Part shown: piece after piece, positions 5,264 to 5,833 of the stretch
Layout: every line of letters begins with the position of its first letter
Numbering within the stretch: the stretch's first letter is position 1
DNA from: Weissella diestrammenae
GTDB lineage: Bacteria; Bacillota; Bacilli; Lactobacillales; Lactobacillaceae
Length of the DNA stretch: 64,000 nucleotides
Direction: 5' to 3'
NCBI RefSeq assembly: GCF_014397255.1
Contig: NZ_CP060724.1
Span: forward strand, 1,595,382-1,659,381
The notes under the pieces: model-generated
Databases searched by the model: none
What the model was told of the DNA's origin: nothing
What the model saw: only the letters and a program-made list of their open reading frames with translations
Position numbers and translations under genes: made by a program

Positions 5264-5608
5264 TTATTTAATATTTTTCAGCGCATTCTTTGCAATTTTT
5301 TGTTGATCCGCCGTGCCTTCTTTTGCAAATCTTTCAATAATATGCCGTTTTTTTGAACGTTCCTGCATGACGCCCATACCATTGATATGGTTAATATGTT
5401 GATACGTATCGATACTATTAATTAATTCTACATAGTCATTTTTAACAATGTACAAATCAATCTGTTCGATTAGGATTTCATCAGTTGTATATTGTCGCAT
5501 TGCATGCAAATCATCATTACTCAAATCAGTAACTGTGAGAACGCGATCAACGCCAAATTGTGCTAGCATCATACCTCGTAATTGTTGGTTTAGTTCCTTT
5601 GTGTTCAT
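5264..5608 (-). CDS. Uncharacterised 114-residue protein under SAM riboswitch control
   Basis: Not recognised. The start is ATG 5608, preceded by GGGAG; the longer frame back to 5632 has no ribosome site. The protein is soluble, has no cysteine or signal peptide, and is rich in Asp, Gln and Ile, with a basic C-terminus (ERSKKRHIIERFAKEG and KIAKNALKNIK). Predicted structure is largely helical. It is the only gene between the SAM-I leader (5656-5798) and the next promoter, so its expression should rise when S-adenosylmethionine is low. That suggests a link to methionine, SAM or sulfur metabolism, but no catalytic motif supports a particular role. Confidence 0.8.
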   Translation of the reverse strand: MNTKELNQQLRGMMLAQFGVDRVLTVTDLSNDDLHAMRQYTTDEILIEQIDLYIVKNDYVELINSIDTYQHINHINGMGVMQERSKKRHIIERFAKEGTADQQKIAKNALKNIK

Positions 5609-5655
5609 GGCAAAACTCCCGTTTAACGTCACGTGGACAGAATTTTACCAATTAA

Positions 5656-5798
5656 AAACCGCATTCGGAAATACGAACGCGGTTTAACTCGATACGTATA
5701 TCCGTTTACAGTGGAGCACCTTGCCGAATCGGTAGGTTGCTGCTGGGTCAAAGTGTGTAACCACTCGCCAGCTCTTGATATTGCGATATTTAATTGAT
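5656..5798 (-). ncRNA. SAM-I (S-box) riboswitch with terminator and antiterminator
   Basis: Minus-strand leader. P1 is formed by ATATC (5777-5781) and GATAT (5698-5702). It is followed by AAGAG, then P2 with GCTGG (5768-5772) pairing CCAGC (5742-5746), the conserved GCAACC (5735-5740) and AAGGTGCTCC (5713-5722), all hallmarks of the S-box aptamer. Downstream, AAACCGCGTTCG/CGAATGCGGTTT (5656-5685) plus TTTTTAATT is a terminator. CGGATATACG (5695-5704) contains the P1 3' strand and can instead pair with CGTATTTCCG (5666-5675), disrupting the terminator. This is a classic transcriptional OFF switch. Assignment is by eye, without a covariance search. Confidence 0.82.
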
Positions 5799-5804
5799 AT
5801 GGGT

Positions 5805-5833
5805 AGTATAATTCCGCCCTGTTTTAAAGTCAA
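5805..5833 (-). promoter_or_regulatory. Promoter of the SAM riboswitch transcript
   Basis: TTGACT (5828-5833), a 17-base spacer and TATACT (5805-5810) on the minus strand. It places the transcript start near 5798, just ahead of the aptamer P1 helix, and separates this gene from the TetR gene ending at 5863. Confidence 0.8.

Follow-up and report, generated by a model that had tools for sequence, protein, structure and literature searches.

S-boxes are established switches of methionine and SAM genes. In the described SAM-I riboswitch (RF00162), P1, a P2 helix with a kink-turn G-A signature, an L2-J3/4 pseudoknot and a P3 helix with GCAACC/GGUGC are combined with a terminator/antiterminator exchange that runs through the 3' strand of P1, and the P4 hairpin is peripheral, outside the SAM-contacting core. 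The nucleotides of that core, in T. tengcongensis numbering of the crystal structure, are U7, G11, C44, A45, U57, G58 and U88. Almost all Lactobacillus genomes have reportedly lost their S-boxes (PMC3766115). An S-box match was found in 66 of 301 Lactobacillaceae genomes, and metK lay behind 53 of the 84 S-boxes inspected in this family but not behind the other 31; the genome studied here carries a second S-box (L001) that precedes metK. The first-pass annotation had held an S-box in Lactobacillales to be notable in itself, which these counts contradict: the novelty lies in the gene behind the switch, not in the occurrence of the S-box.

We analysed a 64,000-nucleotide stretch of Weissella diestrammenae contig NZ_CP060724.1 (the window), in which sequence and covariation identify the minus-strand leader (5654-5833) as a true S-box of the SAM-I class, predicted to be an OFF switch, with SAM binding as a putative property (Table 1). 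It shares with RF00162 all of the helices, the kink-turn signature, the pseudoknot and the P1-mediated exchange listed above, but differs in having no P4, in scoring under the Rfam cut-off and in its target, which is not a methionine or SAM gene but an uncharacterised gene for a small protein that is mobile in part of its range. P1, the P2 pairing, GCAACC and AAGGTGCTCC, all named in the first-pass annotation, were found in the leader; the lack of P4, where only 3 nt separate the pseudoknot strand from P1, and the presence of the pseudoknot had been missed. The SAM-clan search that the annotation had suggested gave a full-length RF00162 match with an E value of 1.4e-6 (401-nt search) but with 35.8 bits, under the gathering score of 44.4 bits, so that a default Rfam scan of the window reports nothing. 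This low score is largely due to the absence of P4, and S-boxes of relatives scored 30-76 bits with the same model. The SAM-I/IV riboswitch (RF01725) belongs to the same clan and has the same core, but its model gave only 27.9 bits (cut-off 41.1), less than SAM-I. Because P4 is missing here and also from most metK S-boxes of Lactobacillaceae, we name the aptamer a P4-less SAM-I variant. Those metK S-boxes come from the same bacterial family and are expected to follow the same OFF logic, but they form another subtype (e.g. GATACAGCAC or GGGACTAGACCC in P2b/L2) that is kept with metK.

The aptamer structure was well supported by comparison among relatives. When 25 S-boxes from Lactobacillaceae and Vagococcus were aligned and the named structure was counted, 96.4% of cells were paired and 12 of 20 tested pairs had changed on both sides. 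The covariation score of 0.478 (shuffle mean 0.153) was reached by none of 500 shuffles, as was the pairing score, and sliding the partners lowered the covariation score to 0.026-0.094. Covariation extends to each of the five L2-J3/4 pseudoknot pairs, the strands being UUACA/UGUAA in the window, UACC/GGUA in Weissella confusa and CUAUG/CAUAG in L071. The letters that match the SAM-contacting nucleotides are present in the window and invariant in 25/25 aligned S-boxes. The leader also folded better than 200 of 200 shuffled sequences (z -3.75).

Table 1 Features of the leader and gene, in window coordinates.
Feature	Position	Strand	Basis
Sigma-A type promoter, TTGACT-17-TATACT	5805-5833	-	Sequence, pattern scan, relatives
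SAM-I (S-box) aptamer without P4	5695-5784	-	Rfam RF00162, covariation in 25 S-boxes
Aptamer parts: P1, P2a, P2b, L2-J3/4 pseudoknot UUACA/UGUAA, P3 with GCAACC...GGUGC			
Antiterminator, GGATATACG (5703-5695, P1 3' strand) with CGTATTTCC (5675-5667)	5667-5703	-	Sequence, relatives
Intrinsic terminator, CCGCGTTCG-TATTTC-CGAATGCGG followed by TTTTT (9-bp stem, T5)	5654-5682	-	Sequence, minimum-free-energy fold
Conserved block GTCC..GTGACGTTAAAC-GGGAG with ribosome-binding site, just 5' of the start	5616-5637	-	Alignment
114-aa all-helical protein, unnamed family (ATG at 5608, stop ending at 5264, GGGAG at 5620-5616)	5264-5608	-	Profile, dN/dS, AlphaFold

The expression platform described by the first-pass annotation was recovered in full, namely the sigma-A promoter with 17-bp spacing, the terminator and the antiterminator that reuses the 3' strand of P1. 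Taken by itself, the promoter pattern did not exceed the chance level (5 sites per 1 kb vs 5.3 in shuffles), and promoter-like sites occur at the matching place in the leaders of relatives. The two antiterminator strands of the window, GGATATACG and CGTATTTCC, pair at 8 of 9 positions with one T-T mismatch. The corresponding GATATACG/CGTATATC pairing is kept in relatives: in most of them the P1 strand GATATACG complements CGTATATC in the terminator loop, and in the window it complements CGTATTTC with one mismatch. From this anatomy and the covariation we infer both the steps of the switch and its OFF-with-SAM direction. The P4-less riboswitch would sense SAM; with SAM bound, P1 would hold GATATACG, the terminator would form and transcription would stop about 150 nt in, and with SAM absent GATATACG would instead pair with the terminator loop, allowing synthesis of the 114-aa protein. 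In relatives, GTGACGT is able to pair with an ACGTCAC that follows P1, and three of these relatives show compensated changes. This ACGTCAC/GTGACGT helix (leaders of L107, L121 and L127; window 5616-5700) encloses the terminator and ends just 5' of the ribosome-binding site; it has shrunk to 4 bp in the window copy and may possibly add a second, translational layer of control.

The gene behind the switch was as unrecognisable as the first-pass annotation had found it. No family in Pfam or NCBIfam matched the protein at the curated cut-off, and weak profile matches to YNG2, occludin and protein A were taken as chance. The AlphaFold model contains five helices (pLDDT 84, less confident at the N-terminus), and structure searches gave no informative fold match: Foldseek against PDB and viral models returned nothing below E 0.9, and VIA-align of the predicted structure gave only generic helical bundles (Z <= 8.1). 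A scan of the genome contigs with the single window protein likewise gave no matches, and a profile built from 14 members placed the family in 19 of 397 Lactobacillaceae genomes. The dN/dS ratio was about 0.14-0.45 for relative pairs with enough changes, the lowest values coming from a separate W. confusa family, and we therefore regard the ORF as a protein under purifying but loose selection.

We next considered how closely leader and gene are linked. In all intact full-length copies inspected, a class-2 S-box precedes the gene by about 150 nt, and decayed gene copies in two genomes (G268, G695) keep recognisable leaders. The sole profile match without an S-box is a C-terminal fragment (G204) fused to an apparent plasmid replication gene. 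In the other direction, searching independently with a DNA pattern built on the leader returned 32 loci, of which about 20 carry the window protein family by inspection and the remainder other small ORFs, with metK in one. The unit spans at least eight genera, and a literature search found no report of it.

Comparison of flanking DNA indicated that the unit is mobile in part of its range. Leader and gene form a discrete cassette of 0.4-0.7 kb with unrelated flanks in Leuconostoc, Fructobacillus, Lactobacillus and three mobilizable plasmids. By pairwise DNA comparison of Leuconostoc and Fructobacillus loci in different surroundings, the borders fall at about -223 and +490 from the start codon and the enclosed DNA is 93-97% identical; in Lactobacillus equicursoris and L. 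delbrueckii the common stretch reaches about +160 or +380. Four mobilizable plasmids, from Lactococcus, Leuconostoc and Latilactobacillus, carry the leader, and on three of them the gene is present, behind a SpaA pilus operon. These comparisons of DNA show leader and gene as one conserved unit and, in Leuconostoc, Fructobacillus, Lactobacillus and plasmids, as a horizontally spread cassette with its own predicted promoter. Terminal inverted repeats were sought at the cassette ends and not seen. A prophage origin is unsupported because no trace of the leader was found in the phage collection or viral contigs. Two loci, L115 and L092, retain remnants of a second gene copy immediately up- or downstream of the cassette, a pattern suggestive of tandem recombination between copies. 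L092 (JAEDAG010000001.1) is labelled Faecalicatena absiana, has Lactobacillus-like genes beside the cassette and is probably mislabelled or contaminated; it was left out as evidence for spread outside Lactobacillales.

Several chromosomal copies adjoin restriction genes: L106 has an HKD-Snf2 helicase, DUF4391 and a type III methylase as neighbours, L112 a type I HsdR and L119 a type II methylase. Three of these loci have a common upstream flank, whereas their downstream restriction modules differ. In a rough test using a list of non-housekeeping helicases made by hand from ORF lengths, 6 of 18 copies had a non-housekeeping ResIII gene no more than 10 kb away, against 0.53 expected. With the same hand-made list, merging loci with a common flank left 4 of 16 (P ~7e-4, few independent loci), and intact copies only gave 3 of 14 near a restriction-type helicase (P ~0.007). 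Since three plasmid copies adjoin the pilus operon, the restriction link may reflect only common variable regions. No restriction gene was seen near the window copy in the part of the window read, and the listed ResIII matches include none closer to it than about 69 kb. On one plasmid of Leuconostoc pseudomesenteroides (CP065973.1; L127:10021-10290), a class-2 S-box leader with terminator lies directly before PbeA/PbeC-like defence genes. The family gene is absent there and only a 16-codon ORF separates leader and defence genes, an arrangement that could be a SAM-controlled defence operon.

Taken as a whole, the P4-less SAM switch and its gene probably constitute an accessory cassette, partly mobile, that is induced at low SAM. 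When SAM falls, whether by methionine starvation or through a SAM-degrading phage enzyme, the accessory 114-aa protein would be produced. An accessory gene switched on at low SAM appears more likely than a step of sulfur metabolism because the cassette occurs in many lactic acid bacteria and several copies lie beside DNA-restriction systems. For the protein itself we tentatively favour a part in restriction or in conflict with phages, a guess prompted by the apparent enrichment of copies beside restriction-modification genes. A more specific form of this guess, in which the riboswitch of a mobile cassette senses SAM depletion by phage SAM-degrading enzymes or methionine starvation and turns on an anti-restriction or anti-phage protein, the same sensor being plugged into PbeA/PbeC defence on CP065973, seems rather unlikely as a whole. 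Inspection of the protein, which is not strongly acidic, led us to discount an acidic DNA mimic of the ArdA or Ocr type. SAM is the cofactor of restriction-modification. An S-box and an uncharacterised small protein form one unit across genera and on plasmids; if this is confirmed, a mobile cassette would be carrying a metabolite riboswitch that reports on cellular SAM. The uncharacterised family now has a predicted inducing condition, which makes its function directly testable.

The first-pass annotation had instead proposed the protein as a candidate member of SAM or sulfur metabolism, and in this vein it could be a homeostasis factor that, for example, restrains a SAM consumer or adjusts MetK. 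The established role of S-boxes and the S-box before metK in the same genome are in keeping with this, as is the position of the Weissella unit, which has a TetR/ABC-2 exporter locus on one side and a glycosidase/AraC locus on the other; the glycosidase/AraC flank is common to the window and W. paramesenteroides, so that the unit looks resident at a place shared by two species. Against it stand the sporadic, mobile and plasmid-borne distribution, the fast evolution of the protein (relatives are 19-29% identical to the window copy) and the neighbours of the copies examined, which were accessory genes with no methionine or SAM gene seen among them. With no Pfam or NCBIfam match to such proteins at the cut-off either, we consider a homeostasis factor doubtful.

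Selection might instead act on the RNA: the terminated leader, about 150 nt long, would work in trans, as the Listeria S-box RNAs SreA and SreB reportedly do, and the ORF would be secondary. Leaders are 80-94% identical between loci whose proteins are far less alike, conservation extends beyond the aptamer to the compensated helix around the terminator, and the leader persists without the ORF on CP065973. Nearly all copies, however, have an intact ORF, purifying selection acts on it, and the antiterminator and ribosome-binding site that are kept make sense mainly if the gene is read, which leaves a trans-acting leader improbable. An equally improbable reading is a toxin or abortive-infection protein induced by depletion of SAM through a phage SAM lyase or SAM hydrolase: a counter-defence role of phage SAMases is documented (PMC7877911) and the cassette is a mobile single gene near restriction genes, but a toxin-like fold or catalytic signature was not found.

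The switch-plus-small-gene arrangement extends beyond this family. Most of the 31 S-boxes in Lactobacillaceae that do not precede metK stand before small ORFs, encoding either the window family or other small proteins. Apparently unrelated small ORFs follow the S-boxes of L019-L024, L067, L068, L071, L072, L100 and L118, and such pairs occur in W. confusa/cibaria, Ligilactobacillus, Lapidilactobacillus/Lactiplantibacillus, Vagococcus and further genera. A motif G-h-[AG]-x-x-x-A-R that by eye seemed common to these other proteins was unsupported by a profile test against 3000 shuffles, except perhaps in L072. One genus (g33; L026-L031) has S-boxes in which the P4 hairpin is present, and the uncharacterised ORFs behind them, 52-54 aa long, start with MRL.EENFR.
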